Source: Ischnura elegans
Taxonomy: Eukaryota; Arthropoda; Insecta; Odonata; Coenagrionidae
Direction: 5' to 3'
Assembly: GCF_921293095.1 (NCBI RefSeq)
Contig: NC_060247.1
Span: 109,511,111 to 109,575,110 of the forward strand
DNA: 64,000 nt
Shown: positions 13,401 through 62,689 of the stretch, piece after piece
How the letters are laid out: each line of letters begins with the position of its first letter
Numbering within the stretch: the first letter of the stretch is position 1
The notes under the pieces: generated by a model
What the model was told of the DNA's origin: nothing
The model's input: the letters and a program-made list of their open reading frames with translations, nothing else
Database searches by the model: none
Made by a program: the position numbers and the translations under genes

Positions 13401-16400
13401 CTTAACCGCGTAATTTTCGTGAACAGTTTTAATATAGCAAGATTAGAAATAGTATTTTGGAATAATTTAGAGACTCCTTGACTCTAAAATGTTTAATCTC
13501 GGTATAAAAAATCAAATCAATGATCAAATATTTAATGTAAACACACAAGATTATAGAAGAAAGTTTGCTCTAATTGGCTACAAATGACTCGTGACAAATG
13601 ACGAAAACAAATATTTGGTGAATAAAATAAGTAGCCTTTTTTAATCACATTTTAAACAAATACATATTTGGCTAACGATGAAACAATGCCCTAAAAACTT
13701 TGCTCAGAGATTACTTTTAAAGGAACAAAACCTACTGTCTGGAATCATGTCCCTAGCAACCTCTCTAAATAAATAAATAATTGTCAAGGCATCACGATGA
13801 CGATACGTTTTCACTGTCTTAAGATTTTAAAATGACTACACTCATCCTCGGATTTTCTTCTTCAGAAGTCGCCGAATCAATTTCACTGATAATTTCCTGT
13901 TCTGCAAGCATTTCTTTGAACATAAGCCCGTTACGACGAGACATGATGCTATCACCAACGCCTCACGGGGACGCCTAACTGGCCTGCCCGGCGAGCCTAG
14001 TGCTGCAACACAGTATCACAGCGGGGGAAGAAGGGGGATGGGAGAAGAGGGTGTCGTCCTGCGTCATAACAACGAAGCAAAATCGACAAGCCACATATCT
14101 GGTACAAATTCGTAAACAATTACGTGTTACTAAGGGTCCTGCGTATGTATAGGCGACCGACTTTGAAAACACCATCCTGACGCTTTGGTGGTGCAAAAGA
14201 TGTATCATCATCATTAGTCAACAATCCTAAGATTGGTTTGACGCAGCTCTCCATTTCTCTCTCCTATCCGCTAATCTCTTCATAGCTACATATTTATCCT
14301 CTTTTTCATCCTTTATAACCTGTCCTATATAACTCATTCGGGGCCGTCCCTTGCCCTTTTTCCCTACCACTTGTCCTTCAACGATTGTCTTCATCAGACC
14401 ATCGTGCCTCAAAATGTGGCCAACTAAGTTGTCCCTTCTTCTGCTTAATGTTTTTAGGAGGCTTCTCTTTTCTCCTACTCTCCATAGCACTTCCTGGTTA
14501 CTATAAAGATGTATATATAATAAAAAAATTGTTTCTTCAACCCTCCTAGTGCCACAGGCGGATCTATCGGCTTTTGCGTCTGAGCCGAAAAGTCCCTTGA
14601 GCCGAAATATCGGCTTTGAGGCAGTTCATTGTCCAAATTAATAATTATGCATGAATTAAACTCTTGAATAAAGAATCAGTATAAATTTTACAGTTAAAAA
14701 TTAATATAATAATTGTAAAATAAAAAACAGCTCGTTGATAGCAAAAAATAACATAGCAGAATTTTTTCTCAAGGATGTTACATTTGATTTAAATACCTAT
14801 GGCATTTCTTGCTAGTGCCACTCCAGAATAAGAGGGTTATTGGAAATAAAGAAATAAAACTTTATAAGGTTCACTATTATTTTAATATGGGCACGACCCG
14901 GGTTTCGTAACGTGGTTACATCTTCAGGTTACGAAATTATTTTAATATGGGCACGACCCGGGTTTCGTAACGTGGTTACATCTTCAGGTTACGAAACCAC
15001 GGTAAGAAACCCGGGACGTGCCCATATTAAAATAATAGTGAACCTTACAAAGTTTTATTTCTTTATTTCCAATATGGAGAGGTTTCACAAAGTAAAGCCT
15101 GAAGTTATCATTTATAAGAGGGTAAAAAATATAAATATATGGTCTAAAACGGATATTCAGGAAAATAGTGTTCGAAGACCTCTGTATACAATAAACACAA
15201 TATATACCAAAAATGATGCATTGGCTGATGAAGAATCAGATTTTTTCCCGGCGAATGACTTGAATGTATTCTGCTCGCGTTTTTAACCAAATTAGGATCT
15301 GCATGTTTTAGACCTGACTGTATGTTGTAGTAGGCATGCAAAATTCATTCCCTTACTCGGTTGGAAAACCGAGGAGAATTGTGGTACATTGGTCCTTTTA
15401 GGTATTTATACTTATATCCCCAAAACAAAAGTAGATACCGCCACGATGATTATTGACTACATGCTTAGTATTAAAAAAACATAAAGTCAAGAAGTTACCA
15501 CCTTCAAACGTGAATTTAGGATCTGTGATTTGCCGGTAATGATGCCCTCTGTTGGGTTAAACCGGACGTTTTTAAATGAAATTGATGGTAGAAATCGTTT
15601 AGAAAGCTTCTTTTTAAATTTAGACGCCGGTTTAGTTCTGTTCCATTCCGAATTCATGTACCCAAGTGCTATCCCAATCCTTAAATACTTATTTATGCAT
15701 CAGTATTAAATCTAGTTTTGCCTTAGCTGCGTATGCCAATCTTTTGAACTCGGAGTATCCAATCTCTTTCACCAAATTTCTGTCTGCAGGGGGGAAAAAA
15801 CGATTTCCAGGTGTGCATCATGGAGCATTTCCTTCCGGAAAATGTGACGCGGGGAATGTACAATGAAAGTAGATGCCCTACCTGTGCTCACATCTGCAGG
15901 TACGCCGAAGTAATTGAAGTTCAAATAGCTCGAACATTGCATGCTGTGCGGGAGTGGAGTCCAACATTTTTTTAACCCTAATTTATTTAACAATGAATTA
16001 TTATTCTTTCCAGCAAGTCGGAGTCGATATTAAATTGTGCATACAGTGCCATAGATGAAAGAGCTCAATGCAACCAATATGTGAGAGACGTGGGGGAGCG
16101 GTTTTTTCGTGGTATTTTCGCCGCCACAGTCGCTTTCTTCTGCGAAGGAGGCGGAGACAGGTTGACAAGTAAGGTTTTTTAAAGATAATTTTTGTTGATG
16201 AAGTTTATTTTCTCCTCTATTTTTAATAAGAGACACGTTCAGATTTCATGTGTGCACGATTAAAAAATTCGGACGAAAAATATAGAATATAATACATGTT
16301 TGTTAAGGCTCTGGGCATACCCTTGGAGCTAAACACAACACAATTTAAAATAATTGACTCATCAAAAAGCTCAAAGTACACGAAAAAATCAAGTAATATC

Positions 16401-19400
16401 GATAAGGCAATATGATACACAAATAATAATGAAATAGCAAGTAAAACAAGGATTTTAATTTAACGACACACGTAATGTGTAGGCTGTATTTTATTTAGGA
16501 GTTTATTTTCGCTCTCCATTGAGTAGAGCCATGTATAAATTATATTTAAATGCATGGTGGGAAACCTTCTGTTTTAGATCCTAAGGGAGAGAATTCCAAA
16601 AGTTAGATGTCTTAACTAGAAATGATTTCTGATAGACGGTTATACGTGGAATTGGATAACGTAAATAGTCCTTTTTGCGAGATGCCATCTGAGTGGTTAC
16701 TGATCTGTTCATGAAAAATTTCAGGAGATAATCAAGGATTCTCTCTATGAACATCTTAAAAAGAAGAACACCGAGTAAATATTTTCTTCGGTTACAAAGA
16801 TTTAGCCAACCTAGGCTGATTCTGTACTGTGATATATGAACTTCCTTTCTTAAATTAAATACATATCTTGCACTTGAATTAAGCACCTTTTTGTAAAGTT
16901 TTATCCTACTCTTTATGCATATCATTATAAATAAGTATACAAAAATCAAAAGAAGGAAATACCAAGGTAGAGATTAACGTTTTTCGGGTGGAAATAGGAA
17001 GTAAGTGCTTATGAAGTTTTAGTTGATAGAGTTTGATATTGAGTTTAATACAGAGTGGGGAAAAATTATACCACAAAATTTTAACTCTGGATAGCTTATG
17101 CTTAAAAAAAGGAGAATGGAATGCTATCAGATGTGAAGTCTGAATTCCAGTCTGTTCCATTCTCCTCTTATGTCTTCATTTATTCCGCATTAACTTTTAC
17201 AGAAATTGGGGTTCCTATAAACATTTTACCCCCTGGTAAATTTGGTATTGAACATACCCTTGAAGCAAAACACAACAAAATTTACAATAATTGCCTGATC
17301 AAAATGCTCAAAGTACCTACACGAAAAAATCAAGTAATAACGATAAAGCAATATGATACACAAATAATAATGAAATAGCCAGTAAAACAAGGATTTAAAT
17401 TTAACAACACACGTAATACGTCGGCTGTATTTTATGTAGGAGTTTATTTTCGTTATCCAGCTCCATGTATAACTATCTATCAGATATCGATTCTTTAAGG
17501 CATTTCAATTTTAGAATTTAGCTGATGCTAGTATTAACCAAAGTTACTGATGATGCTTCCGTAGAAAACGTACTATTTTTAAACCACAGAAAATTTGAGC
17601 CAAGCGCTCCGATTGGCCGCGACTTTACCCTGTTGACGGATGCTCTGGACTAAGGCAAATGCAGATGCATAAATTCTGTACACTATAATAATATAAACTC
17701 TATGTGGAAATGCATGGAAATAGTTCGAAGTCCCGGGTTGTCCAGAGCAACCGGCACCAGGTCGAACTCGCGGCCAATCGGAGCGCTTGGCTGAAAGTTT
17801 CAGTAGTTTAAAAATGGTGAGTTTTCGACCTGAACATCAGTAAATTTGATTCCCACTGGCATCAGCTATCCATTATAATTACAATATCCTGGCATAATTT
17901 TTCTCCTCAATTTATTGTCTTTTCAATTTTTTGTGAGACGAAGCCGAAGCAACTCATTTCTTTATCATGCTCCCAGCAGGAAGTGCGGAAAGTCAATCAG
18001 AATTTAATCGCATGAAGCATTAAAAAAAATAAACTTAGCATAGGACGTAGAAGCTGCGAAAAAATTATCGTAAAAAGTAATGCAATAAAAATTTTCAACT
18101 GAGATGGAAAGTATAGTGCTTGAAGTATAATTATCTGATCTTCAACATTGTGCTGTCAAATTGGCTGAGAAAATTCCATTTGGGTCTCAAAAACTCATTA
18201 GTTGCTTTAAAATTCTTTGACATGTTTCTTGTGGCCACGTTTTCTTTTCACAAAATACCAATAGCGTGCCCAGGGTCAAAACTAGACGGGGGCAAGCCGT
18301 GGTCGTTCAAGATGTAACACAGAAAAGGTTAAGGAAACTAAAATTTCAAGAAAATTACGACAACACTTTATTAGTTTTTAAATTTATTCTATCAAAAATA
18401 AAATATCTTTATTTTAAATATATGTTATATACTAATGTCAATTTTCATGGATTTAAAGAAAAATTATTCAAAACTTTCGTTTTGAACTACATTTACTTTA
18501 GCTTCTTTGGGAGGGGGCAGCTGCCTCCTCCTGCCCCTCGCTGGGTACGCCCATGCAAGATACTACTAATTCCAAAACTCTGTGAGCATATGTCCATATT
18601 CATGTGGTTCTACTTACAGCTATCGACGACAGTCAGAACATGCGCTGCATTGTGACCCAGGAAAGCAATTGCACTATATCTCTTATACCAGATGATAGAA
18701 GTGATAGCAGAACTTTAGAATTCACTCCAGAAGCTTTGTGCAGGTGAGGATTTTATTATTATTATTATTGATGTTTTATTCTGTAATACGGTTTGATAAG
18801 TCGAATACTTAGCCGGATGGTGGCATAAATATGTATGAACTGAGTGAATCCATAGATATAACATAAATAGAACAGGCCTTGATAGTGAAAAAGTTATAAA
18901 GCATTCAGAATTATTTTTTTTAAATCCTGCCTCAAGCATCTTATGCAGGATGGAAAACTTGCGTTGAAGATTGAAAAATTCTCTGCCCCTAAGTTTATTT
19001 TGCGTTAATTTGATCTCAAACAAGCACTTCCTGTATTTTTGCGTAGAGTTACCCAAATTTGACCGTTTCTTATTCCCTTAGCTTTCGTTCCCACAAACTG
19101 CTTTGATAAGAGGAAACTTCGTTAATCTATAGGAATAACGAAAATAAAATAGTCCTAAATAGAGAAGAAAAAATTATAGAAGCACTCAAAATTCAATAAA
19201 AAAATCTAATGCAAGAGGGAATACTTGCGCTGAAGATTTAGAACTCCTCTACCCTTGGTAAATTTTTCAGTCAGTTTTTTCTCAACTATGTTACATACAC
19301 ATATTTGCGCGTAAAATCATGTTACCCAACTTTGAGCATTTCGTATTCCCTTAGAATTTGCTATAAGAAATTGCATAAGTGTGAGGAGCCTATGTCCCAA

Positions 19401-20936
19401 CCTGACACCAGTTTTAAGTAATGTTCCTTAACTGCTTGTAGAAAACGCTTTGTTTGTACCAATAAAACTGCAGAAATTGTTTTAAACGGGGAAAACCTGC
19501 GTTCGAACTGATGCCTTCGATGGAAATGGATTGGTATTACGGTGTGTTGCCATTGGTGTAAATGACGGCCTCCTCCCTTACACTCAATTCAAAGTATTGT
19601 CGATTTATATTTCAAAGAATAATAAAATTGATGGTTTGAGGCGTGACTTTGTGAAATCGCTTCATGTTAAATGAAAAACTTTGTAAATTTCACGTATGAT
19701 TTTAGTAACAACCAGTTTCGTCGCTGTGCAGCATCGTAAGGTTCAAATACCAGATACAGGTAGAGTATGACCTTATATTGAGTGATTTGGGGTAGAATGG
19801 TGGCCAAGATGGCGAAGCTGGGAAGGGGTATGGTGGTACTTAAAAGTTGCCAAATGGGAGGCACACAAGTTACAAAATTACAAAATGGAAGGTACACAAT
19901 GTAAGAAAATGGGAAGAAAACAATGTAACAAAGAATAATATTATGCATGAAATTGGTCACTGCAAGCCCTTACCCTCGCGCACGATTCAACAAATAAATT
20001 CGACGACACTTTTTTCTTACTTTATTTCCCTCATTTCGGAGGGAGATAAGGTGAATTCAGTACGAAAGATGCAGTACATTTAAACGAGAAATTTCATGCC
20101 TTATTTTATACTTGAAGCTTATCGATGCAATTGGCAATTTAAATACTTTAAATTTAAGGTAAACCTTTGGTAATGATACCATCGGAAGCATTTGCATTTG
20201 TACTTCATGCCAGTGGTGTCATGGAAAATTTGCAGTGCCGGAAAGCACTTTCCTTAACTTTTTTACGAGTGATATATTAATATTAGATGTTTTTTTATTA
20301 CGAGTTATTATTAACATTTAATTGCAAATAATTTTGTGTGGATTTAACTTTTTTTTTCGATTAGGATTGTATATACTAAAACATTTTGAGGCACCAAACT
20401 TGACAAAGTGCTATTTGACAATTCTGTGTTTTCCTAACCAGTGCCGGAACGGTGTTCCAGCACCACGACACCATTGCCTCATGCCCAACGAGAATAAAAG
20501 TGACTACCTTCAGATGGTGTTAAACATGTGTACAAAATGATGAACAAGGAATGTCATTCAGTAGAAATAACAGCGTAACAAAATAGTAACATTGGTTTCA
20601 TTAATATTACCTGAATAAATTTTGATCCGGATACCTTCAATCGTCTCCCTCTTGGATTTGATGATATAATGTTCTCAGTTGCTTAATATCTGATCGTTTT
20701 TAAATCATTCTCAGTCAATTTTGCTTGTCCGGCCTCTGAGTTCTGTTCAATGCAAGCAAGTAGTCTGCGTTTCACCTTTTATTATTTTTTTTTACAATTG
20801 CAGGAACTTCATATCGGGATTGTCCTGCGTGGCGAAGAAAGCAGAAGCTTGTAATCAAGAAACTGCCGCACTATTCCTTCAGTACGCAGACTATCTTAAG
20901 ACAAATAGTCCCTGCTCCTCACCCGCTGGAAGCTAA
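10426..20936 (+). CDS. Gene A: secreted 27 kDa hemolymph glycoprotein-like (DUF1397) protein, 221 aa, six exons
   Basis: Exons 10426-10456, 11530-11642, 15790-15899, 16014-16168, 18620-18743 and 20804-20936 join into one open frame of 222 codons with GT..AG introns of phases 1,0,2,1,2. A signal peptide covers residues 1 to about 22 (hydrophobic LLFLLGVCLSLL). The mature part has 14 Cys (45,57,77,80,84,93,104,128,146,154,177,186,194,215), an even number suited to seven disulfides, and five N-glycosylation sequons (N28, N34, N66, N73, N153). CPTCAHIC at 77-84, AFFCEGGGDR at 125-134 and the LC..C..C..C tail match the layout I recall for insect P27/DUF1397 hemolymph proteins; their biochemical role is unsettled. 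Poly(A) signals AATAAA lie at 20946 and 21105. Exon structure is supported by paralogs B and C. Family name is recalled, not searched. Confidence 0.78.
11530..11642 (+). CDS. Gene A exon 2
   Basis: Acceptor ctcatgatag|g, donor aa|gtaagt, phase 1 to 0. Completes the leader (GVCLSLLDTAISDPIPQ) and carries two NET glycosylation sequons and the first mature Cys. Confidence 0.75.
12550..12697. mobile_element. Poly-G repeat end, unclassified
   Basis: gtagccaggaatttcg followed by a 12-13 base G run and a mirrored ggggtccggaccccc motif, the style of transposon ends seen elsewhere in the window. Boundaries approximate. Confidence 0.35.
14227..14490 (-). pseudogene. RTE-type LINE, 3' coding tail fragment
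   Basis: The minus strand reads LSRRRDNLVGHILRHDGLMK, then GKKGKGRPRMSYIGQVIKDE and MKRLADRREKWRAASNQS. This is the same C-terminal block that ends the RTE-type LINE at 42300-42540 (NKWVGHLLRHDGLVK, RGRPRLSYITQVMKD). Only the last 85 or so residues survive, as expected for a 5'-truncated LINE copy whose 3' end lies near 14205. Confidence 0.7.
14902..14927 (-). ncRNA. Hammerhead ribozyme-like core, copy 1
   Basis: On the minus strand: CTGAAGA (matches CUGANGA), then TGTAACCACGTTAC, which can fold as stem II GTAAC/GTTAC, then GAAAC, followed by CCGGGTC with a possible GTC cleavage triplet and a minimal palindromic stem III. Stem I pairing was not convincing, so activity is uncertain. Confidence 0.4.
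14962..14987 (-). ncRNA. Hammerhead ribozyme-like core, copy 2
   Basis: Identical core to copy 1, exactly 60 bp downstream, inside the tandem duplication. A tandem arrangement is what dimeric hammerheads with very short stem III would need. Confidence 0.4.
15790..15899 (+). CDS. Gene A exon 3
   Basis: Acceptor tgtctgcag, donor cag|gtacgc, phase 0 to 2, 110 nt, the same length as exon 3 of genes B and C. Ends in CPTCAHIC, the block shared with gene B (CPRCSHVC). Confidence 0.78.
16014..16168 (+). CDS. Gene A exon 4
   Basis: Acceptor ctttccag, donor acaa|gtaagg, phase 2 to 1. Encodes the segment ending AATVAFFCEGGGDRLT. The earlier GT at 16161 would put the next exon out of frame, so the GTAAGG donor is preferred. 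A frameshifted copy lies at 49854-49942. Confidence 0.78.
16315..16511 (+). repeat. Direct repeat, copy 1
   Basis: About 200 bp (shared cores such as caatatgatacacaaataat, and aggagtttattttcg at the end) recurs in the same orientation at 17252-17452 with scattered substitutions. The two copies flank a LINE tail. Confidence 0.75.
16581..17160 (-). pseudogene. LINE reverse transcriptase C-terminal fragment
   Basis: Two minus-strand frames (17160-16906, then 16949-16581) read as one decayed LINE C-terminus: KLHKHLLPISTRKTLISTLV, then LNSSARYVFNLRKEVHISQY, SLGWLNLCNRRKYLLGVL and a final YQKSFLVKTSNFWNSLP. That ARY-x-HI, WL-x-RR, WN-x-LP order is the post-RT region of Jockey/CR1-group LINEs. No RT catalytic box remains; a frame break lies near 16920. 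Confidence 0.65.
17252..17452 (+). repeat. Direct repeat, copy 2
   Basis: Partner of 16315-16511; see that entry. Confidence 0.75.
18262..18556. mobile_element. MITE-like insertion in gene A intron 4
   Basis: Left side gcgtgcccagggtc, right side ctgggtacgcccatgc: the ends are imperfect inverse complements (GCGTRCCCAG). The right end holds a G-rich stretch gggagggggcag. No transposase. Confidence 0.4.
18620..18743 (+). CDS. Gene A exon 5
   Basis: Acceptor cttacag, donor cag|gtgagg, phase 1 to 2. Encodes IDDSQNMRCIVTQESNC through FTPEALC. This exon is missing in the relic copy A'. Confidence 0.75.
18744..20803 (+). other. Gene A intron 5
   Basis: AT-rich; 18780-19380 is paralogous to 50560-51150. 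No gene or repeat recognised apart from that. Confidence 0.5.
20804..20936 (+). CDS. Gene A exon 6 (C-terminus, stop TAA)
   Basis: Acceptor caattgcag. Encodes NFISGLSCVAKKAEAC and LKTNSPCSS, ending in TAA at 20934. The copy at 51321-51453 encodes the identical peptide with only two silent changes. Confidence 0.8.
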
Positions 20937-25612: not shown

Positions 25613-28600
25613 GTGAGTAAATTATTTTTAAAATAAGGAATACCTCCAATGTGATCGATCGATGACAGATTAAGTGATTGATCTTTAAGAACTGGACGAC
25701 TGCGTTCAGTACATGGTCGTTCTTTGACCGTTTTTTTACATTTGGATTTATTTTAGCAAATGCAAATATTAACGTTATAATGAAGTAGCCTCTTCCTTGT
25801 GGCTGCAATGATAGAATTTACTAAGATAGATTTTGGGGAACTATATCGCTTCCGTCGCTATTTAAATAACCACGAAGTCATCAAGGAAGTGGCATTTACA
25901 CTCGCTCTTGAAGTGAATGCTTACTTTCTCGACTGGAGCTTTCTGGTTGTTATCATAGTTTGATCAATTTTTGTGGTGTATGATCGGTAATCTGGTTCAC
26001 AATAATAAAAAGGGCTAACTAATTTTGAGTAGTTTTTTCAAGTCTTATTAATTGATCTTATGATAAGAGATTTTCCTCCGCTTGGTCGTGCATGTAAAAT
26101 GAGAAATTTTAAAGTGCCTTATGACCCTGATTATAGCCGAAAACTGAAATCCACGTTTTTGAATAGAATTAAAGTGAATGTTTGCGTTATAAAAATTTAA
26201 TATGATCACATAAAATATGCCATGGAATTGAGAGTATCTTATTTTTCTCATGAAAGCATATGTGAGATATACCGTGTTAACCAAGAAGCCTACCTCGGCT
26301 TGGGGTCATAGATGACGAAATGAAAATATTTTTTGCAACTTTTCGAAGTGTTGACAATGAAAAAATCAACTTTAAAGGATTCCATATCATTATGAACTTG
26401 TGCAAATATATGTGGTTCGTCTGCTTCAAAGGCATTATTATTGAGAGGAATGGAATATTTGATTAGGCAACGTCTTGAACGTTATTTTTATTTCTTCCTC
26501 GCCTCCTCTTTCATTGGACAAGCTATATTGACTATTGACCGTTAATCGTGTGGTTAAGATACAATACTAATTTCAGTTGCTTTTTGGTACTTCCTCTTGC
26601 TCACACTGTTATTATTGTTTTAGTAGTTCACGGCTCTCGTATACAGAAATTTTCATAATAACATGTTTTTTTTATATTTTTTAATAAATGTTATTACTTA
26701 CCGCTTCTTTCATCAACGTAATTAGGAGAATTTTTAATTATGTGGCTTACCCTGGGTGTATTATTACTCGTTAATCCTGGATAGTAATGAAATCATAATC
26801 GGAAATTCAGAACGAGCCATGCTTTGATATTACAGAGCAATTAGCGTATTAAGATACGTAGTTGCGTCATCTACTATACCTGGCGATGCCTCGTGGGTTA
26901 CGGGTGCGCAAAAATATTCAGGACAGTACATTGATATTATAAGTGAAAATAGACGATTTTAATAATTTTTCCAGCATGTGCCTTTTATTTTATGCCTATG
27001 TGCATCATGTTATGTGTAAAGATGATGAATGATGATCTATAGGTTTAATCTAACTGGTAATAAAAACTCTGCGATTACCTTGAAAATGTTGATTCACTCA
27101 TAAAATTTTAATGGCATTTTAGAAAACAAATTTGGTATTTTATCTTTTTTGATTTCTATTGGGCAAACTGTATTAGGAATTATAAAAAGAGCATGAAAGT
27201 GCATAATGATCTTTGCTGTCGACGAGCCCCTGTAACAAAATACTTGTAATATCTATTTCAAATATTCGTCTCGTTGCCCCGCTGGTAGCTCCATACCTGG
27301 CTATTTGCCTCCGACTAATATATCGAGTAATTATGTGTGCTTAGAAGAGATGTAATAGTTTCTTTTCCGAAAGTAAACAAGCAATAGTGTGGTTATCCAG
27401 TTGATGAGTTGTTCAATATCATTGGCTCAACAGTATAGCTTCGCTAAACACTGTTATATGAAATTAACCCAATATTTTTTTTTGGGAAAGAAAAACCGTT
27501 AAATTATTTCTTCAAAACATGTTTCTTTTATACTACCTGGGATTAAAAAAAAAGATCCCACAACCGTTAGACAGTAATGATTTTGCTACTCCATTTTTTA
27601 CAATTGTGAATGTTCTCTGAATATCTAAATATAGTATAAAATGCTCTTATGTTTTCTTTAGTGGCAGCTTGTGTCACACTCCCAGCACTTGGATTTTATG
27701 TACCACGTGATGATGACACCATCGAGCACCAACAATGCATGAACAGGAGCCATGTAAGTAACTAAACCAGTGTGATACTCGTGGAGGGGGTTTCTGTAAA
27801 AGATAGCGGCTGCGCTATTATGACGAATATTATTATTATTATAGCAAAACTTGTTACAAGTCGACCACAAAGTCGGATAGTAACATAAAATCAAAAAGTA
27901 TATGAAGACAAAAACATAAAATACCTAGTACAAGCTTGGTCGATAGGTATCATCAAAATACCCAAAATACACAAAAACCAAAATACAAAACATAAAATAC
28001 TAAGTACAAAAAAGTTTTGAAAAAGCCCACAGAATCCATTTTTAAACTATACATAACACACAATAATATATGAAGACCAAAGCAAAAACATGAAACACCA
28101 AATTCGAAAAATAAACGCTTGCAAATCCCTCAGATTTAAATTCTATTTAACCTAGTCATAACCATGATAAAAAGAAGAGTACAATGGTAATTTCCACACT
28201 TTTAATGTCACAACTCAGCAACCGACCATGGTTTCAAGGTTTCGACCATGACTAGGCATGGTTACGTTAGGTCAGTTATATTGAATATAAATCATCAAAT
28301 TCAACGCATGGATTAGGATCGAGCCTTGCTCTAATTTTCCCTAGTATAGTTAATTATTCCATATATACGGCTTCGTATTTAAGTATAAAAAACGCAGTGT
28401 CATTAATGCCGTTGTCAATGTATTATCACTAACATTTCCATTATGAGACCCCATCTCTTCTCCGCTGCTTTAAATTTATCTTTATGCTTGATAAGTGTGA
28501 TCATAGAGTTATTTATGAGTTTTATCATAAATATTGTGCGAGTTTGATTTTCGTCGCCTGCAATGCGCGGAACTGTTTTCGATCGTCAAGTTGTATCCTG

Positions 28601-31600
28601 TTCTCGGACCTCATGGATCATCAGGTATTATCATAAAAACTAAAATTGTCTTTTGCTGACCGCCTGATAACGATAAAGGAATTTATAAAATATAATTTAA
28701 GTATTACTATAAACAACTTTCTGAAGTACTCCACTCGCATCGTTTGCCCTACACTAATTTTCATTCCGACTACATATATCACCAGGGCAATATGTAACGC
28801 CCTCAAAATCAGCGTAATATAACGTGGTGAAATTTGCGGGATAAGCATCGAAGCTATTTGAAAAAGGGAAATAGCAGCAGCGCAGTATTGCGCCCCCAAT
28901 GGGTGCTTTCAATTTTTCTACACACGTCGAAGTTGCGTAGCGGTTTTCATGTTCCATTCTATGTGTATCGCCGACTGTTGTGGCACAAGTCAACAAACGA
29001 TTACGTGCAGGAATTGGAGAGTTATAAACCGTTACCGCGAGTCGGCACTAGTCGACGCGTGAGTCGCATGAATGGAAAGCACCCTATGTACATAATAACC
29101 CTGATGAAATTCATAGTCCAGAAACAGTATGTCACGCTTTCTCTTCAGAAATAAGTCTATTTCGCGTCTTATGTAAGCCATGTAATTTATCTCTCAGTAT
29201 ACGTGCTGTTTTTTGACTTGATGCCGTTTTGATATGCATAAAAAGGAAACGTTTTGTGAATATTTTACATGAAAATCGACAGTCTACTTTTTCGGATAAT
29301 TTCCACGAATTTTTAGGTATTTCACATAATAAACAATATCCCTTTATTTTCCGTCGTCCATGGACCTTGAAACATCTGTAGTTATACACGTCATGCGCAT
29401 TACACGCATGGTGGTAAATTTATTTCAGCTGCCTCGTTATCCAGCCTCTATGAGCTCGAGTTTATTTCACGCATAGTGAAGCATATAATCCAACTAATGA
29501 ATAATTAAAAAAAAATTAATTTCGACTCAAAAATTTATGAAAACTAACCCCAGTTTATAAGCTAGCTGAATGTACATTTAGCCAGCGGGAAGTTATGTGT
29601 TGTTTAAAGAAACACCGCCATAAGGATTGTTATTGTTTTCCTCTAATTTTTGGGAAACACTAATGGGGTATAGTTTGAAGCAGCTTATCCTCGGGAATTA
29701 TTTTTTCACAGATGGCATCAGTTGACTTATCACGATGCATGATGAGAGTACTTGAAAGCGGAGGAAATCCGGATGAGTTGTATCCTGACAGCCCTTGTCC
29801 TCGTTGCAGTCATGTGTGCAGGTTGGTATTTACATTCAACGTCTCAAATTTCGAATGCCATGAATCTCGGATAATAAATAAATAAATGAAAAGTAAATAA
29901 AAATAAATAAATTAATTAATAGTTAATTAATCCATTGTTCTAAGAGTACGTTCTCCTTTATGATATAGCATTAAATAACAAGGTGTACGCTGACAATGGA
30001 GATAGGGATAACAAATAGTAATATAATAACATAAAAAAATTAATTTCTTCTTTTATCACTTCATGAGCATTTAATGTATCCATAAATAAATCTATTTACT
30101 CAGTTGAAAATAGACTTAAGGAAATACAGAATATTAACAAAACGAAAGAAAAAAACTAAATTTCTTCTTCTGACACTAAATCAATTTAAAACGTGTCGAT
30201 AAACTAACAGATCAATCAAATCCAGTATCATCAAATTAGTCAGACTTGTGGGTCCCTGGAAAGTATTCCTTTTAAAAAAATTCAAGTGAAGCACTGTATT
30301 TTGCCTGTTTAGACAAATCGTTCCACAGTTTTGAGACAACAGCTATTATATATAGTTAAATAAAGCGTAGTAAAAATTGAATCGATGATAATTTATTTAG
30401 GTCTAATGGCATTTGACAAGACATTCCCTTGCTGCTTACTTGAGTTTTTTTTTCATTCTCTTGGCCTTCACTGTTAACGCTGATTAGTGTCATGCAGTGT
30501 AAGTCTTGAAGAATTATATGCCTATATATTTATTTGACAACGTTTCGGTATATTTATATACATTCATCAAGTTTTCCTGCAATGGGTTGCATTTGTTTTG
30601 AAAAAGTTATTTTCTTAATTCTCTCATCTAAAGCAACGTGTCCGGACGGGCTGAAATTTTCACTCAATTATGAGTACAGAGCCAAAAATACCTCTGAAGA
30701 TGTAGCCATGAAAATTTCTGGATATGTTCTTAGTTCACGAACACAAATAATAAATATATTCGTATCTCGAGGTATCACTGTATACAGATATACCTAAACG
30801 TTGGCAAACACTTGCTATTAACAGAATAATCAATTCGTAAAAAGGCATGCTTGACTTAAGTTTGGTATTTTTGGTTTTGATAGTGACTGTTGTGTCGTAG
30901 CGATAAGTTTTCTCTGAGTGGTAAGGGTTTGGTTTTTTTGTTGAATAGGCGCGCTGTCATTATAATAATGAACCGGAATTATTTAGAAAAATCAGGCTGC
31001 AGATTTAATTTGTAAGTTTTCAAAAATCACGTCTTCGACATATTTCAGCTTGAAAATTTAATCGCTCATTCGGAATTGGAAGTAAGTGTGTTAAGTACAC
31101 ATAATTCCTTTTTATTGCCCGATTCATCCTTTTCTAACAATGCTAGTACTTCCTTCTTTGAAGGGATATAAAAAACCCAGAAATGATGTCCTACTTATTA
31201 TAGTATTTTGGTCGACTTTTTTGATGTAATTTCCTTTGCCAGCATTTTAATTCAATGTTCCTACCGCTAAAAGTCTAATTGGCATAAAAATATTGCGAGG
31301 GCAAAGGTTTTTCTTTCAAAATATTGCAGTATTTCTTTAAAAGATTGGTGATGTTATTCGCACCACTATCGACATGTGTGCTAGAGTTTAATGTCATCTT
31401 TTATCATGAAGAGTAAAGTTCCCCAAATTCACCACACTAGTCATAGTCCACTGTAATATATATATATGTATATATTCATATATATATATATTACAGTGGA
31501 CTATATAATATAATATAATATAATATAATATAATATAATATAATATAATATAATATAATATAATATAATATAATATAATATAATATAATATAATATAATA

Positions 31601-34600: not shown

Positions 34601-37600
34601 TATAACATAACATAACATAACATAATATAATATAATATAATATAACATAACATAACATAACATAACATAACATAACATAACATAACATAACATAACATAA
34701 CATAACATAACATAACATAACATAACATAACATAACATAACATAACATAACATAACATAACATAACATAACATAACATAACATAACATAACATAACATAA
34801 CATAACATAACATAACATAACATAACATAACATAACATAACATAACATAACATAACATAACATAACATAACATAACATAACATAACATAACATAACATAA
34901 CATAACATAACATAACATAACATAACATAACATAACATAACATAACATAACATAACATAACATAACATAACATAACATAACATAACATAACATAACATAA
35001 CATAACATAACATAACATAACATAACATAACATAACATAACATAACATAACATAACATAACATAACATAACATAACATAACATAACATAACATAACATAA
35101 CATAACATAACATAACATAACATAACATAACATAACATAACATAACATAACATAACATAACATAACATAACATAACATAACATAACATAACATAACATAA
35201 CATAACATAACATAACATAACATAACATAACATAACATAACATAACATAACATAACATAACATAACATAACATAACATAACATAACATAACATAACATAA
35301 CATAACATAACATAACATAACATAACATAACATAACATAACATAACATAACATAACATAACATAACATAACATAACATAACATAACATAACATAACATAA
35401 CATAACATAACATAACATAACATAACATAACATAACATAACATAACATAACATAACATAACATAACATAACATAACATAACATAACATAACATAACATAA
35501 CATAACATAACATAACATAACATAACATAACATAACATAACATAACATAACATAACATAACATAACATAACATAACATAACATAACATAACATAACATAA
35601 CATAACATAACATAACATAACATAACATAACATAACATAACATAACATAACATAACATAACATAACATAACATAACATAACATAACATAACATAACATAA
35701 CATAACATAACATAACATAACATAACATAACATAACATAACATAACATAACATAACATAACATAACATAACATAACATAACATAACATAACATAACATAA
35801 CATAACATAACATAACATAACATAACATAACATAATATAATATACATTAAATTTATAATATAAATATATATTATAAATTTAATGTTTAACTTTCCTACTT
35901 CTGTATTAACTAGTATACCCACGAATAGCGGGAATTCTCGTCATTTTTCCCTGTGTGTTTCGCTGTGCTCTACATGTAAATACACCGGTACGCAACGTGT
36001 TAAAAAATAATCATGCATTTATTATTTTTCCCAAAGCAAAAGGGATGAAGTCCAAGAATGCAGTCGCCGATATGCAAATAACGTGATAGAAATAATGGTG
36101 TCCCACAGAGTATTGGAATTATCAAGATTTATGGACCAATTATTTGAGTCTGCACTGTCATTATTCTGCCGCCCAGACATTATACAGTGTAAGTCTTTGA
36201 GGGATTTATTATTATCTAATCTATTTATGTGACTGAGATGAAACTTTACTTTCATGTTTAATTTGCGGTCTTATTTGTTCTCAGTTATGAGTGATAGCGA
36301 AAAGACTACTTATGCGTCCCAGAAGCTGAAAGCCTGCAGTCCAATTATGATCATCGGGAGTCCTGATGACCTGTGTAATGTTCGCGAGACACCGATGCCA
36401 GGGTTTGAAAGAAATATTTGCCGGTAAGCAATGATCATGCGAAATTCAAGGAAGAATGCTGGATAGGCAACCGATTCATTGATGGCGAAATAATCGGTTG
36501 CCAAGGGCTGTTTTGTCCGGTTTCTGAACGAATAAATGCCGGCTAATTCGCACTGAATTCAATGCAGAGCGAAGTAGCTGTTGCTGCTGTCAATCTAGCA
36601 AGAATTATTAGGCCTGCCGCACACCGGCTGAGGCACGGCGCGGCGACTCAATTTAACTTAGTCTGGCCTCGCTGTGCCTTCCCCGATGGTTGAGAGTAAA
36701 GGTAAAAATCCGTGTAACAAGTTACATGTAACATTGTGTTGCAAAACAAAATTCGTGTTATATAACAAGTTTTTGGTTTCCCGCAAGTGGTAAAATTTGT
36801 AACATGTTATAAAAAAAGAGGTGAGGCGCATGGTGGGGATAGCTAATTGACGAGTGGGCTTGGAATGAATCTGTAACATGTTATTTGAGCATTTTTGGCT
36901 CCGATGGACTCTTGTTATAAAAAAAATGTTATATAAAACAAATGTTACAGGAAACTTTTTACATATAGCATGTTTGCATGACATGTTACACAGTATAAAC
37001 GCACCCTAACATACGTCACGGTAAGGCGACTTGAAGACAAGTGTGGCGATAGAAAGAAAAAGCCATCATAATTTCAATGGTTTCGTTCCGATGATCAAAA
37101 TTTAGAAACGAAACAAAATGGATTTAAACCAAAGGAGTTAAATTCAGGGTCGAAACGAAATCGGAGTCAAAACTACTTCGGGTGGAAACTAAACTAAATC
37201 TCTGGGACGAAACGAAATATAAAAAATGTGTCTTGCAGAAGGGACCACGTTCTTCACCTTCGGACAGTTTAGTTTCGACAAACACACCGAGTACTGAGTA
37301 TGGTTGAATGAAGTAGAAGTTCAGCCTACCGCCATTAAATGCATGGGGCACTCATATTTTTACCACTAACAGGAGAACGGTGAACAGAAATTAGCCATTC
37401 GGTTGTTAAGCTCAATGTTTTAACCTCTCTACACGCATGTCAAACGTAATGGGTCGAAACTTTTTCCTCTTAACCCCCTCCACTCAACTTATGGGATCGA
37501 AACTTAACTATGAGCAGCGAAGATTCGATTAATTTATTTTCGTTCCCCGGGGTAATGTTTCGCCCCGGGCTGAAACTAAGTTCCTTGGTCACTTCGTGCG

Positions 37601-47580: not shown

Positions 47581-47589
47581 TAATCATGA

Positions 47590-49151: not shown

Positions 49152-49853
49152 GTAAGTTCATTTCACAACTTGATTTCATGAGCGACACACTGGTTTATTC
49201 ACTTACATTCAGTATTTCTGGGTCCCTTTTCCCTCATTGTTGCGGATTGAAGGCGTCATTAATGCACGGTTCATCAAATCCTAGTGCCGGGAGTGTGACG
49301 CAAGCCGCAACTAAAATAAACGTGAGAGCATTTTTACTATACTAGGAAATTAAGAGCATATGCACATAGGGGCGGTCTGGGGGTGATTGGCGGCTCTTGG
49401 GTACTAGAGCTCATGACGAGGACCTCCTTCCCGGGGGTTTTAAGGGTCTTCGGAAAATTTTAGGATATTGCAACCCCGAAAATTTATTTTGACGCTTTTC
49501 TACTTCTTGGAAACTAGGTAATAGTTAATAGTAAAACATCGATTTCGTAAGAAAAAATTCTACGAGAACTGAGAATTCTAGTGATTATAAAATTTTATAA
49601 TATATGACGGTTCCATTATCTATTTAGTGAATTTACTCCCTAAAGCTGCTCAGAAATATATGAATCATCTAAAGTAATCTTTACGAATAACCCTTTCAGA
49701 AAAAGATTCTGGTTCTCTTTTATCATCTGACGTTTTTATTTATTATTTTTTAGATAATCTTTTTATTCTATTTTGTAAATATAGTCAGCATTGTAAACGT
49801 AGAATTTTATAATTGTAAAACAGTAAGGTTCTAGTACTATGAGTACTTTTAAA
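49152..49853. other. Junction between the B-type relic and the A'-type relic
   Basis: Includes a repeat-like G-rich stretch (49366-49460). No gene seen. The left breakpoint of the duplicated A block lies near 49853, in the middle of exon 4. Confidence 0.4.
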
Positions 49854-51453
49854 ATGTGAGAGACGTGGGGGAACGGTTTATCGTGGTATTTTCGCAGGCA
49901 CAGTGGCTTTCCTCTGCGAAGGAGGTGGAGACACGTTGACAAGTAAGTTTAATTTGTAAAATAATTAGATATAAAATTATAGTTTCAGTAAATATCTCCG
50001 TGGATTAAATTCGAAAAATGTCAAGATTGCAAGTGTGCGAAGTTAAAAAAATCAAACGACAAATACGTAGGGTGGAGAAAAATTATGTCTCGAAATTTTA
50101 ACCCTGGATAGCTAATGCCTGTAGGGACCAAAATTTCCCATAATATTTTTGTTAAAAAACGGACCTTTTTTAAACTTCAGAAACTTTGAGTCAAGTGCTC
50201 CCTTAGGCCAAGAGTTTGCCCTGTTTCCGAATGCTCTAGACCAGGGGTCTCCAAAATACGGCCCGCGGGCCGGATCCGGCGCGCGCACTTGTTTCATGTA
50301 GCGCGCGACTCTCGCTCGTTTAACTATGTGAGACGCCGCTAGGAGCATTGCAGCGCTGTACTGCCCGTCAAAGTCACCTTCAACTCTTCGTAAAGAAGAA
50401 ATACGCCAACGGATTCTTCCGTAGACATTCAGTATGTATCGAATACTTCAGTCATCGGCTTTGCTATCCGGCCCGAGGGGCGATTAGGAACTTGGAATGT
50501 GGCCCTCGTGGCCTAGTAATTTCGAGACCCCTGCTCTAGTCAAAGGCACATGAAATACGGTTTTTTATGTCGACTACTTATCCAGATGGTCGTATAAATA
50601 TGTATGAAATGAGTGAATATATAGAAATAACATCAATAATACTGGCCTTGATTATAAAAAAAAGTTATAGACGTACTCAGAATTAATTTTTAAAAATCCT
50701 GTCTAATACATCTTGTGCAGGATAGAAAACATTTGCTGAAGATTGAAAACTCCTCTGCTCCTGTGTTCATTTTGCACTCATATGATCTCAAGAAGTATCA
50801 CCTTTATTATTGTGTAGAGTTACCAAAATTTGACCGTCTCGTATTCTCTTAGCTTTTGTCCCATAAAAAGCTTTGATAAGAGGAACCTGAGTTAATCCAT
50901 AGGAATAACGAGAATCAAACAGACGTAAAAATGGAGAAGAAAAAAATTAAAAAATTCATCCATAACTCAATTTTGAAATGCAGGAAAGAATACTTGCTAA
51001 GAATTACTTGTAGATGATTGAGAACTTCACTCCCCCGTTGTAAATTTTGGAGTCGGTCTATCCTCACCAAGTACCTGTATGTGCGCGTAAAATCATTTTA
51101 CCCAACTCATCGTATTCTTTTAGCTTTTGTTATAAGAAATTGCAATATACAACCTCCAATCGTCTCCCTCTTGGATTTGATGATATAATGTTATCAATTG
51201 CTTAAGATCTGATCGTTTATAAATCATTCTCAGTCCATTTTGCTTGCCCGGCCTCTGTGTTCTGTTCAATGCAAACAAGTAGTCTGCGTTTCACCGTCTA
51301 TTATTTTTTTACAATTGCAGGAACTTCATATCGGGATTGTCCTGCGTGGCGAAGAAAGCAGAAGCTTGTAATCAAGAAACTGCCGCACTATTCCTTCAGT
51401 ACGCAGACTATCTTAAGACAAATAGTCCCTGCTCCTCACCTGCTGGGAGCTAA
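49854..51453 (+). pseudogene. A': broken second copy of gene A (partial exon 4, exon 6)
   Basis: 49854-49942 matches the last 89-90 nt of gene A exon 4 including the donor (acaa|gtaagt), but has lost one T of a T-run, so it is out of frame. Exons 1-3 and the 5' part of exon 4 are absent, and a deletion removes the region equivalent to about 17660-18780 including exon 5. Exon 6 (51321-51453) is intact and encodes the identical C-terminal peptide. The proximal poly(A) hexamer is changed from AATAAA to GATAAA (51463), while the distal AATAAA at 51616 is kept. A hAT MITE sits in the former intron. Not expected to make a functional protein. Confidence 0.82.
50242..50533. mobile_element. hAT-type MITE, 292 bp
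   Basis: Ends CAGGGGTCTCCAAA and, inverted, CAGGGGTCTCGAAA. 8-bp target duplication ctctagac / ctctagtc (50234-50241, 50534-50541). The paralogous empty site in gene A intron 4 is at about 17640-17660 (gctctggactaaggcaaatg). GC-rich interior with cggcccgcgggccggatc. Confidence 0.88.
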
Positions 51454-56967: not shown

Positions 56968-59900
56968 GTGAGTAAATTATTTTTAAAGATAAGGAATACT
57001 TGTAATGTGATCAATGAAGGATTATGCCATTAATTTTTAAGAACCGAACGACTGCGTTCAAGACATTGTCTTTTTATGTCGTTCTATTAATTGATCTTAC
57101 GGTAAGAGATTATCCTGTGCTTTGTCATGGATGTAAAATGAGAAATTTTTAAATGCACTATGACCCTGATTAGAGCCGAAGACTGAAATCTGTGTTTTCG
57201 AATAAAGTAAAATGAATGTTTGCGTTATTAAAATTACATATAATCACTTATAATACGACGACTAATATGCCATGACATTGAGAGTAACCTATCTATGAGA
57301 CGAAGCATGCGTGAGATATACTGTGTTAACCAAGACGGCTACCTCGGCTTGCGGTCTTAGATGTTGAAATGAAAATTTTTTGGCGACCTTTCAAAGTGTC
57401 GACAGTGAAAAAAATCAAGTGAATGATTATTTTCATATCGTTATTTTTCTAGTGGATGTTTTTGTCGTGCGTAAGTTTCAATCCCATGATTGTCGAGAGG
57501 AATGGAAAATTTGATTAGGGTTCAATCTTGAACGTTATTCTGATTTCTTCCTTGTCTTCTCATTCATTGGACCCGCCATTATGAGGATTGACCATTTATC
57601 CTGCAGTTAAGATAAAATACGAATTTCAGTTGCTTTTTGCTTCTTCCTCTTGCTCATCTGGTTATTTTTTCTTTAGTAGTTCACGGCTCATACATACAGA
57701 TATTTTAATGATAGGATTTTTTTTACGTTATTTAATAAATGTCAGTGCTTACCATTTCCTTCGTCATAGTGATATGGGGAATTTTTAATTAAGTGGCTTA
57801 CCCAGGGTGTATTATTACTCGTTAATCCTGGATAGTAATCAAGTCCTAATCGGAAATACAGAACGAGACATGATTTAAGATTGCCGCGCAATTAGCGTGG
57901 CAAGGTACGTTGAAGCGTCATCTATGATACCTGGCGACGCCTGGTGTGTTTCGGATGTGCAATAATGGATTAATATAAAGTGGACTTTGCATTACATCGA
58001 TATTCTACGTGAAAATAGATAATTTCATTGATTTTTCCAGCATGGGCCTTCTATTTTATGCCAGAGTGCGTCATGTTATGTGTCAAGTATATCATAGATA
58101 ATGTATAGGTATAATCTAACTGGTAATATAAACTCTGCGATTACCCTGAAAATGTTGATTCACTGATAACATTTTAAAATTTTAATGGAATTTTTAGAGA
58201 ACAAATTTGATATTTCATCTTTTTTTATTTCTCTTGGACAAACTTTATTCGAAATTTCAAAAGAGGGAGGTGCATAATGATCTTTGCTATCGATGAACCC
58301 CTGTAACACATTACTTCTAATTTATATTTCAAATATTCATCTCGTTTTGCCGCTGGTAACTCCATAACTGGTTATTTACCCCTGACTAATCTAACGTGTA
58401 CCAATGTGTGCTGAGGAGAGATGTGGTTGTTTCTTTTTTGAAAATAAACAAACAATAGTTTGATTATTCAGTTGATGATTTGTTCAATATCTTAGCTCTA
58501 CAGTATAGCTTCACTCAACACTGTTATATGAAATTAACCCAATGTTTTTATTTAGGAACGAAAAACCGTTAAATTATTTCTTCAAAACATGTTTCTTTTA
58601 TACTACCTGGGATTAAAAAAAATATCCCACAACCGTTACACAGTAATGATTTTGCTACTCCATTTTTTACAATTGTGTATGTTGTATGAATATCTAAATA
58701 TAGTATAAAATGCTCTTACGATTGTTTTAGTGGCAGCTTTTGTCGCACTCCCGGCACTCGGACTTTATGTACCACGTGTTGATGACACCATTGAGTACCA
58801 ACAATGCAGGAACAGGAGCGATGTAAGTAACTGAACCATTGTGATACTCATGCTGGACTATTGTGTTAAAGACAGCGGCTGCGATATTATGACGAATATG
58901 CTATTCGTGAGGCAATATTACGCCCCCCAGAATCTATATCTCAAAATGGTGGCCCTCAAGCCGAATTTGGAGTCGCTTTAAAGTAGCGGTCCCCAAACCG
59001 GTGTTTCCCGGGCCGTTCGGAAAAGGGTCGCGAGATGTATACAAATATTATTTTGAACTATGTACTTAAACTTTGACAACCTTTTTTAGGGGTCGCGGCT
59101 AAAACGCATGGGCTAAAATATGTTCCTTTAAGTTTGGGAACCGCTGCTAAATAGTATCGAAAATAACGCCAGCGTTTGCCTGGCGTAAATCAGATTGCGA
59201 CTCCCTAACTTTGCATTTTTACGCACCGTTGTTGCCACCGCCGCATGCCATTGTAGGCTTTATATTCCGGGTTTAACCGCGTCGTAACTGTCATCAACCC
59301 GGAAAATGCTACCAGCGCACCGCGGAAGCCTTCGCACCAATGAAAATGGCATTACCGAGGAGAGGTCGAAGCGATTTAAAAACACACACCCAATTAGTAG
59401 GTGACACAAGATTGTCTACACCGCCTAAAAATATATATAAATCAGCGTGTAACTACAATGGGCATTGAAACATCTGTAGTTATGCACGTCATACGTATTA
59501 TATGCATGGTGGTAAATTTATTAAAGCTACCTTGTTATCCATCTTGCATGACCTCAAGTTTATTCCACATATAGTGAAGCATATAATCCAAATAACGACA
59601 GTTTAAAAAAATAGCAATTTCAACTCAAAAACCATTAACTATAACTCCAGTTTATAAGATAATTGAATGTGCATTTTGCCAGCGTAAAATGTATGATAAA
59701 AACTATGTTGTTTAAATAAACACCGCCGCGCCGTAAGGATTATTATTATTTTAAGTTTTGGAAAACAGTCATAGGGTATAGTTGAAAGGAGTTTATCCTC
59801 GGAATTTATTTTTTCACAGATGGAAACATTTTATTTAGGGCTATGCATGGTGAGAGCAATTGGAAGCGGAGGAAATCCGGAAGAGTTGTATCCTGATAGC

Positions 59901-62052
59901 CCGAGTCCTCGTCTCAGTGTTGTGTGCAGGTTGGTATTCACATTCAACGGCTCAAGTTTCAAATGTAATCCATCTCGTTACATAAATAAATGAAATAAGT
60001 ACATAAAATTAATAATAAGTATATAAATAATTAACAAAATTATTTATTTTTCTAGGAGTGTGAACTCCTTTATAACATATCATTAAATTACAATTTTTGC
60101 GCTGACAATGGATATTGGGGGAACAAAAAGTCATACAACAATATGAAAGAAATTGAATTGATTGTTTTGACACTTTATTAACATTGAAAGTATTAATAAG
60201 AATGTAAATCAATTTTCTGAGTTGAAAATAGACGTAAGGGTAACACAAGAATCATTCAGCAGTATGAAAAGCCTAATTTCTTCTTATAATACTAAGTGAA
60301 CATTAAACGTATTCATAAACGAATAAATTTAATAACTCAGTTGACAATAGACTTAAGGATAACAGAATATTCATTAAACGAAAGAAAAAAAACTAAATTT
60401 CTCCTCCTGACACTATATCAATTTAAAACGTGTCGATAAACAAACAAATGATACAACTATAGTAAAATTTAAATCAGTCAGTCGTATGGGTCCCTTGAAA
60501 GTATTCCTTATAAAAAATTTCTAGTGAAGCACTGTATTTTTCATGTTTAAACAAATCGTTCCACAGTTTTGAGACAATAGCTATTATATATAGTCAAATA
60601 AAGCGTAGTAAAAATTTAATCGATGATAATTTATTTAGGTCTATTATGCCATTTGACTAGACATTCCCTTATTCTTTACTTGAGTTTTTTTTCATTCTCT
60701 TGACCTCCACTGTTAACGCTGATTATTGTTATGCAGTGTAGGTCTTGAAGAATTATTTGCCTGCATACTTATTTTCCAACGTTTCGGTATATTTATATAC
60801 CTTCATCAAGGTTTTCCTGCAATGGGCTGTACTTGTTTTGAAAAAATTCTTTTCTAAAATCCCTCATCTAAAGCAACGTGTACGGACGGGCTGATATTTT
60901 GATAATGATAGTGACTTTTGTGTCGTAGCGATGAGTATTCTCTAAGTGGTAAGGGTTTGGCTTTTTTGTTGAATAGGTGCGCTGTCACTATAATAATCAA
61001 CCAGAATTATTTAGAAAAATCAGGCTGCAGATTTAATTTGTAATAGTTCAAAAAACACGTCTTCGACATATTTCAGCTTGAAAATTTAATCGCTCATTCG
61101 GATTTGGAAGTAAGTGTGTTAAGTACACATAATTCCTTTTTGTTGCCCGATTCATCCCTTTCTAACTCTGCTGGAACTTCCTTCTTCGAAGGGATATGAA
61201 AAACCCATGTATCCAGTCCTACTTATTATTGTATTTTGGTCGACTTTTTGGATATGATTTCCTTTGCCAGCATTTTAATTCAATGATCCTACCATTAAAA
61301 GTCTAACTGAAATTAAAATATGACGAGGGCAAGGTTTTTTATTCAAAATATCGCAGTATTTCTTTAAAATATTGTTGATGTTATTCGCCGTACTATCGAG
61401 ATGTCAGATTGAGTTTAATGTCATCAGATATCATGTGGAGCCAGGTTCCCTCAATGCACTACACTCGTTATAGTTCACTGAAATTATTTATATTATATAT
61501 TTAATTTTTAACTTTCTTACTTTTGTAGTAACACGTAGAGTACCTACGTATGGCGGGAATTTTTGTAATTTTCCCGCAGTGTTTCGGAGTGCTCTACATG
61601 TAAATACCCCTGTAAGCAACGTGTTAAAAAAATAATCATGCATTTATTATTTTTCCTCAAAGCAAAAGGGATGAACTCCATGAATGCTTTCGCAGATTAT
61701 CAAATAACCTGACTGACACAAATTCATCTCCCAGAGAATTGGAATTAGTAAGATTTCAGGAACAATCACTTCAGTCAGTAGTGTCATTTTATTGCCGTCC
61801 AGACATTATGCAGTGTAAGTGTTTGTAGGATTTTATATTGTCTAATCTACATGTGTGATTGAGATAAAACTTCTCTTTTATGCTAAATTTGCGGTCTTAT
61901 TTTTTCGCAGTAATCGGTCGAGATTACGAGAGGAATGCTTATTTACTCCGGAAGGTGGAAAGCTGCGGTTCAACTAAGGGCATCGGGACTCCAGTTTCCC
62001 TCTGTGATGTTCGCGACCCATCGTATCCAGGGGTAGAAGGAAAAACTTGCCG
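56940..62052 (+). CDS. Gene C: third DUF1397/27 kDa hemolymph glycoprotein-like gene, exons 1-5 of an expected six
   Basis: Exons 56940-56967, 58731-58822, 59820-59929, 61663-61814 and 61911-62052 keep one frame and the phases of genes A and B; a last exon of about 50 codons should lie beyond 64000 or be lost. Signal peptide MPSLLVTVIVAAFVALPALG. It is the direct paralog of gene B, yet exon 4 differs at 24 of 50 residues and exon 3 at 14 of 36. The CPxC pair of B (CPRC) is replaced by SPRL, so two conserved Cys are lost together; ECFRR, FYCRPDI, LCDVRDP and TCR keep the other Cys. All splice signals are intact and there is no stop, so the gene looks functional rather than decayed. Confidence 0.72.
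56968..58730 (+). other. Gene C intron 1
   Basis: Aligns with gene B intron 1 over most of its length; shorter by a few hundred bases. Nothing else recognised. Confidence 0.6.
58731..58822 (+). CDS. Gene C exon 2
   Basis: Acceptor gttttag, donor gat|gtaagt, 92 nt. Encodes VAAFVALPALGLYVPRVDD and QQCRNRSD. Confidence 0.75.
58823..59819 (+). other. Gene C intron 2
   Basis: Ends match gene B intron 2; the middle (58920-59460) is specific to C and includes a hAT-like MITE. Confidence 0.5.
58984..59146. mobile_element. hAT-like MITE, about 163 bp
   Basis: Ends tagcggtccccaaac and, at the right, gtttgggaaccgctg are imperfect inverse complements of the CAGCGGTTCCCAAAC type used by hAT elements. 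The possible 8-bp duplication is degenerate (ctttaaag / ctaaatag). Confidence 0.55.
59820..59929 (+). CDS. Gene C exon 3
   Basis: Acceptor ttttcacag, donor cag|gttggt, 110 nt. Encodes METFYLGLCMVRAIGSGGN through PDSPSPRLSVVC. Both Cys of the CPxC motif are gone. Confidence 0.75.
59930..61662 (+). other. Gene C intron 3
   Basis: Paralog of gene B intron 3 without the 4.4-kb array/LINE insertion. A hammerhead-like motif lies at 60781-60810. Confidence 0.65.
60781..60810 (-). ncRNA. Hammerhead-like motif, degenerate
   Basis: Minus strand CTTGATGA-AGGTATATAAATATACC-GAAAC, a good stem II, but the first core base is T instead of C. Paralog of 30542-30570. Confidence 0.3.
61663..61814 (+). CDS. 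Gene C exon 4
   Basis: Acceptor ttcctcaaag, donor cagt|gtaagt, 152 nt, exactly as gene B. Encodes KRDELHECFRRLSNNLTDTN through SFYCRPDIMQ. Confidence 0.75.
61911..62052 (+). CDS. Gene C exon 5
   Basis: Acceptor ttttcgcag, donor ccg|gtaagc, one codon longer than gene B exon 5. Encodes LIGRDYERNAYLLRKVESC through SLCDVRDPSYPG and KTC. Confidence 0.72.
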
Positions 62053-62689
62053 GTAAGCGATGATCATTCGAAATTCAAGGGAGAATGCTGGAAGGCAACC
62101 GATTCAGCATTCATTCATCAAGTTACAAATGCGTGTAACAAGTTACATGTAGCATTGCCTTACAAAACAAAAATTAATGTTGGATAACAATTTTTTGGTT
62201 TCCCCACGAAGTTGGAAAATGTGTTCTTATATATATATAAATAAAAGTCGAAAAAAAATAAAGTCGAAAATCGTGTTAGTTAGAACACTTATAACTCGAG
62301 AATGGCTTGACCCATTTGAATGATATTAGGTGATATGGGTACGGCTTAGCTCCGGATAGCATGAGGAGCATTAAAAAATAGGAAAATATAAAAGAAAATT
62401 AATCTTTTTCTTAGGGACATGCTTTTAGGAGTTTTTAATATTACGAAAATTGCAGGAATATTTCTCGGGTTTCCCACAATTACGTTTACGACAATTGATT
62501 GACAACGGTTTACGACAGTTGATAAGTCGGTCAAAACTCCAAATTAAATTATTTGTTTGGTTTCTACCTATTTAATGACTGAACTTCGTATCAATGTAAT
62601 ATTTAAATTGCAAAATGTATTTGAAATATTGAAATCATATTTAAAATATATAATTTGTGCTGTAGCAGGCGTCGGGGTTGTCTGCTAGC

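Follow-up and report, generated by a model that had tools for sequence, protein, structure and literature searches.

Gene models in the window

The window, that is, the whole 64,000-nucleotide stretch of Ischnura elegans DNA analysed here, carries parts of three genes on the plus strand, named A, B and C, all of whose exons are predictions from the sequence. Predicted exon 2 of gene B (27662..27753) has an AG acceptor and a GTAAGT donor and is open in B and C alike; starting with two leading bases and ending in phase 0, it would encode the end of a signal-like hydrophobic stretch and the N-terminus. It is followed by exon 3 (29712..29821; 110 nt, open, splice sites kept), exon 4 (36037..36188; 152 nt, open, AG before and GT after) and exon 5 (36285..36423). 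The counterparts in gene C are exon 2 (58731..58822), exon 3 (59820..59929; 110 nt), exon 4 (61663..61814; 152 nt, likewise open between AG and GT) and exon 5 (61911..62052), the last of which differs from B exon 5 by a one-codon indel. Within the window we located neither exon 1 of B and C nor a terminal exon of C, and a scan for terminal exons returned none from C exon 5 to the window end (62053-64000). A possible exon 1 lies at 26976-27015. Two candidate upstream exons of B, at 29360-29413 and at 25233-25342 with upstream sequence, were rejected, as they left the DUF1397 score (see below) nearly unchanged (22.6 and 21.4 bits, respectively, versus 21.8 without them).

Gene A was reached through a weak match (E 0.14-0.16) to a profile of B and C that included a terminal exon at 51321; the match identified exon 3 (15790..15899), whose splice sites and phase were then found to fit. 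Exon 4 (16014..16168) and exon 5 (18620..18743) are open with fitting splice sites and phase, and the terminal exon (20804..20936) carries the stop codon. Exon 2 of gene A (11530..11642) is tentative; it is open, has a GTAAGT donor, runs in phase 0 into exon 3 and would encode a signal-like stretch and the N-terminus. In A, B and C alike, a hydrophobic stretch, putatively part of a signal peptide, stands at the start of exon 2; exon 1 was not located in any of the three. Joined together, exons 3-6 of gene A read through without interruption for 173 residues and end in a stop.

The window also holds several elements of other kinds. Within 32110-35844, in intron 3 of gene B, lies an RVT_1 element (32110-33540, minus strand) followed by a 1.6-kb (ATAAC)n array; at the aligned place C has nothing that corresponds. 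Between A and B, the open reading frame 23451-24074 (minus strand) matches the DDE_Tnp_1_7 transposase, presumably of the piggyBac type; a weak exon-5-like match that adjoins it (23063-23281, minus strand; E 0.17-0.18) was assumed to be a transposon tail and discarded. An inverted repeat at 2761-5926 (386-nt arms, 99% complementary, 2394 nt apart) is possibly a recent transposon. Rfam and ARAGORN searches returned nothing in the window.

Relation to the DUF1397 family

Exons 3-6 of gene A match positions 33-207 of the 207-position Pfam profile PF07165 (DUF1397) with 39.8 bits (E 4e-10), and exons 3-5 alone with 31.0 bits. The gathering cut-off of the profile is 25.7 bits, and by Pfam's own cut-off the predicted gene A is a DUF1397 gene. 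We take PF07165 to be the 27 kDa hemolymph glycoprotein family, the label in the profile scan being only ‘protein of unknown function’. Exons 3-5 of gene B together with the inferred terminal exon match positions 67-207 below the cut-off, at 21.8 bits (E 1.4e-4; 21.4-22.6 bits across versions of the model). For gene C, neither exons 3-5 nor exons 2-5 gave a PF07165 match, and the score was 19.3 bits when the terminal exon at 51321 was added as a stand-in. By these scores, the predicted products of B and C are divergent relatives of DUF1397 and not members of the family. Exon phases agree in A, B and C, and six cysteines are invariant (A 9, 36, 45, 80, 106 and 129); two further cysteines common to A and B are absent from exon 3 of C. 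Family, cysteines and the signal-like exon 2 together suggest that the B/C product is probably extracellular. Weak Pfam matches to GF_recep_IV and Fig1 (E 0.02-0.33) were attributed to chance and not considered further, and weak matches from PDB sequence searches (best E 0.3 and 0.64) were likewise regarded as chance. NCBIfam contained no family for B, and a search of viral contigs with gene A returned no match.

Exon and intron divergence between genes B and C

Aligned codon by codon, B and C differ at 7 of 30 residues in exon 2, 14 of 36 in exon 3 (with two codons differing only silently), 24 of 50 in exon 4 (with four such codons) and 29 of 45 aligned residues in exon 5. The values for exons 3 and 4 reproduce those of the initial annotation, which had stressed the near lack of silent changes in exon 3, and its statement that these two exons kept reading frame, length and splice sites was also confirmed. 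Exon 5, which like exon 2 and the terminal exon was absent from that annotation, is the fastest of the exons and a hot spot of change. Over aligned sites, exons 2, 3, 4 and 5 differ by 10.9, 19.1, 24.3 and 30.9%, respectively. Seven of the nine cysteines in exons 3-5 of B are also present in C. In the alignment of A, B and C, 60 ungapped columns have different residues in B and C; the residue of gene A is that of B in 14 of them, that of C in 4 and a third one in the remaining 42, a hint that C may have changed more than B.

The introns of the two genes had been described as nearly identical on the strength of one stretch (27487-27550 against 58557-58620). We confirmed the single mismatch in its 64 columns, but the stretch is not representative, as only 1.0% of 64-column non-coding windows are as similar. 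Some 110 nt ahead of exon 2, it sits in a conserved patch (27409-27610) with 11 differences in 200 columns, which could be regulatory or converted. In the alignable non-coding DNA of 25200-36800 (exon 2 excluded), 631 of 4384 columns carry a difference (14.4%), corresponding to a Jukes-Cantor distance of 0.160 (block bootstrap 0.139-0.180); the underlying blocks come from blastn, and DNA that does not align, such as the reverse-transcriptase element and the (ACATA)n array in B intron 3, is uncounted. Pooled 60-nt flanks of exons 3-5 give nearly the same value (50/350, 14.3%).

Against this reference, exons 2-5 show a dN of 0.296 (0.233-0.368) and a dS of 0.189 (0.107-0.286), and dN exceeds the non-coding distance by a factor of 1.86 (1.42-2.40, both quantities resampled by bootstrap). 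For exons 3-5, dN is 0.345 and dS 0.196, and amino-acid-changing sites differ at 86 of 309 positions compared to 14.3% of non-coding columns (exon 2 then counted as non-coding). The excess is concentrated in exon 4 (dN 0.312, about 2.0 times the non-coding distance of 0.160) and exon 5 (dN 0.497, about 3.1 times). Equal-length non-coding windows reach the divergence of exon 2 in 73% of cases, of exon 3 in 22%, of exon 4 in 0.3% and of exon 5 in 0%, so that, taken one by one, exons 4 and 5 alone exceed what is usual for introns, whereas exons 2 and 3 do not. When exons 3-5 are pooled, their 101 differences surpass every 401-column non-coding window (maximum 86). Fisher p values for exons against non-coding DNA (1e-6 to 3e-9) are too small because non-coding divergence is uneven (dispersion index 2.56). 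The initial annotation was right that the exons are the faster sequence, most clearly in exons 4 and 5, but it overstated the likeness of the introns: the contrast is about twofold, and not one of nearly identical introns against exons with half their residues changed.

Such an excess could be an artefact if exons mutated faster owing to CpG or higher GC content, or if the blastn blocks omitted the more diverged non-coding DNA. Exons do have a higher GC content (44.6%, against 33.2% in the sampled non-coding stretches) and alignable blocks alone were counted, yet the excess persists outside CpG, where exons 3-5 differ at 91 of 362 sites (25.1%) and non-coding DNA at 548 of 4148 (13.2%; exon 2 again counted as non-coding). 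Synonymous sites of exons 2-5 (18/111) show no significant excess over non-coding DNA (Fisher p 0.58), and we regard an artefact as very improbable.

The uneven non-coding divergence is also what would be expected if gene conversion between the copies had homogenised the introns while the exons escaped, in which case the exons would merely look fast. Low stretches indeed adjoin exons, with 3 differences in the 60 nt before exon 4 and 3 in the 54 aligned nt after exon 5. Conversion of this kind predicts old synonymous sites, but dS is close to the non-coding distance, and the 96-nt intron 4 between the two fastest exons lies above the average with 18 differences (18.8%). We therefore consider this explanation decidedly unlikely.

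The ratio of dN to dS by itself is suggestive. It amounts to 1.56-1.75 for pooled exons; for exons 2-5 it is 1.57 by counting (bootstrap P 0.037) and 1.56 by likelihood, where the likelihood ratio test does not reach significance (p 0.107). Likelihood estimates of omega are 0.88 for exon 2 (p 0.86; range 0.70-0.88), 1.31 for exon 3 (p 0.65), 1.70 for exons 3-5 (p 0.079) and 1.89 for exons 4-5 (p 0.071). Exon 5 reaches 3.39 (p 0.021; 3.16 by counting), while exon 4 gives 0.90 (p 0.84; 1.22 by counting), a value near 1 because synonymous divergence is high there too (dS 0.255). The initial annotation had proposed dN/dS with intron divergence as a neutral reference; in exons 2-5 taken together, the part of the CDS found in both genes, intron divergence stays below exon divergence and dN/dS above 1.

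Relaxed constraint, with one or both copies drifting after duplication and no positive selection involved, would account for the non-significant likelihood ratio, the omega of exon 4, the intron-like divergence of exons 2 and 3 and the absence from C of the two cysteines that A and B have in common. In exons 4 and 5, however, dN lies above the non-coding distance, higher than drift alone should take it; furthermore, exons 2-5 are open in both copies and a truly dead exon piece in the same window (see below) differs at few sites. We consider drift an improbable explanation. Set against the introns, exons 4 and 5 clearly stand apart, and diversifying selection after duplication, as the initial annotation had proposed, remains the best reading of a dN above and a dS matching the non-coding distance, although pooled dN/dS falls short of significance at the 5% level by the likelihood ratio. 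The whole comparison concerns one pair of copies.

A repeat unit with internal controls

Sequence homology reveals a repeat unit, and we place the start of its second copy at 49851; this point falls within duplicated A exon 4 sequence, some 33.8 kb away from the matching position 16076. The second copy opens with an A-type fragment of the 3' part of exon 4 (49851..49943, plus strand) that differs at 9 of 92 aligned sites and has a one-base indel. Given this indel, and since blastn detected A exon 3, A exon 5 and the initial 62 nt of A exon 4 only once each in the window, we take the fragment as dead. Its divergence is near the non-coding rate of 105/928 (11.3%) at 20600-22800. At 49177..49366, about 500 nt before the duplication junction, the minus strand carries the remains of a B-type exon 2 and its flanks, with an in-frame stop and 71-72% identity to B exon 2 and its flanks, which suggests that an older gene copy has been lost.

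Identical in their 43 encoded residues, the terminal exons at 20804 and 51321 are separated by two silent changes in 133 sites. A count of two or fewer has a probability of 1.9e-5 at the 11.3% rate, 0.0175 at half that rate (as if one copy alone were constrained) and 0.007 at 6.5%, the divergence of the intron just before the terminal exon. The exon has been kept without amino-acid change. Recent conversion between the two terminal exons may have contributed, yet differences resume right beside the exon. With the dead fragment, the terminal exon and exons 3-5, a single repeat unit thus combines near-neutral, constrained and accelerated coding sequence.

The terminal exon at 51321..51453 (plus strand) lies inside the A-type duplicated segment. 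At first this exon and the one at 20804 were read simply as the ends of two copies of a single gene type, a view changed by the discovery of gene A and the A-type fragment. We infer that gene B splices to the exon at 51321, because the A-type upstream exons are missing there, its phase fits B exon 5, a scan for terminal exons found no other in 36424-49850 nor elsewhere in 36424-52000, and B matches DUF1397 with this exon (21.8 bits), whereas partial B (exons 4-5) without it gave no match. The scan was loose, and its 11 rows window-wide comprise the two terminal exons, one extended form, A exon 4 and, as the remainder, rows at 3276-3411, 18502-18655 and 52514-52710 (three loose rows at the last) that were judged unrelated. 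A tentative extension of this splice model, to which we give a limited chance, is that the array is modular: duplication would give each new gene diversifying exons 3-5 and the unchanged terminal exon of a neighbouring paralogue, and B would be a chimera with a B-type front and an A-type end. If true, growth of the array would divide diversification and conservation between exons.

Discussion

In our view the window probably contains part of a tandem DUF1397-like gene array; the encoded proteins would be small, cysteine-rich and probably secreted, and the middle exons of the genes would be under diversifying selection. Judging by the family, the array is probably one of arthropod genes, and the repeated unit, whose second copy we place from 49851 on, would have given rise to the pair B and C. 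After duplication, exons 3-5, and chiefly exons 4 and 5, gained amino-acid changes at about twice the non-coding rate, as the divergence between the copies shows, with seven of the nine cysteines preserved and the splice sites of exons 2-5 intact. The cause would be positive, diversifying selection on the protein, driven probably by contact with a changing partner, for instance a prey, host, parasite or mate; the arms race invoked by the initial annotation is something we would at most infer. If further copies show the same pattern, the genes under recurrent selection for change would come to include an arthropod protein family that is poorly understood, and such selection would point to an outside partner worth seeking. 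A repeat unit with neutral, constrained and accelerated exon sequence also offers a built-in control to separate selection from relaxed constraint.

DUF1397 proteins have been reported from centipede venoms (PMC5869384, PMC6878950, PMC4379518), with which the present locus has the domain name in common. DUF1397 genes, given under another Pfam number, are reported among those with changed expression in a beetle (PMC8418000), and 27 kDa proteins are described from louse salivary glands (PMC12106848) and silkworm blood cells (PMC8914287). Among the matches listed for DUF1397 and 27 kDa hemolymph glycoproteins, the titles and opening abstract lines contain no report of fast evolution. The aphid bicycle genes are described as a rapidly evolving effector family; the domain found in the present genes is DUF1397. 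Close parallels are reported from snakes, in venom genes with accelerated exons and conserved introns (PMC2711939) and in small serum proteins, for which intron and coding rates were compared (PMC7150969); in both, gene copies have introns more alike than exons and an excess of amino-acid-changing substitutions. Like these genes, the B and C copies show a dN above intron divergence (1.86 times); unlike them, they encode other proteins, with 14% divergence between their introns and a roughly twofold excess. It is likely that the pair adds a further case, in a family that has received little study, to an evolutionary pattern already known.
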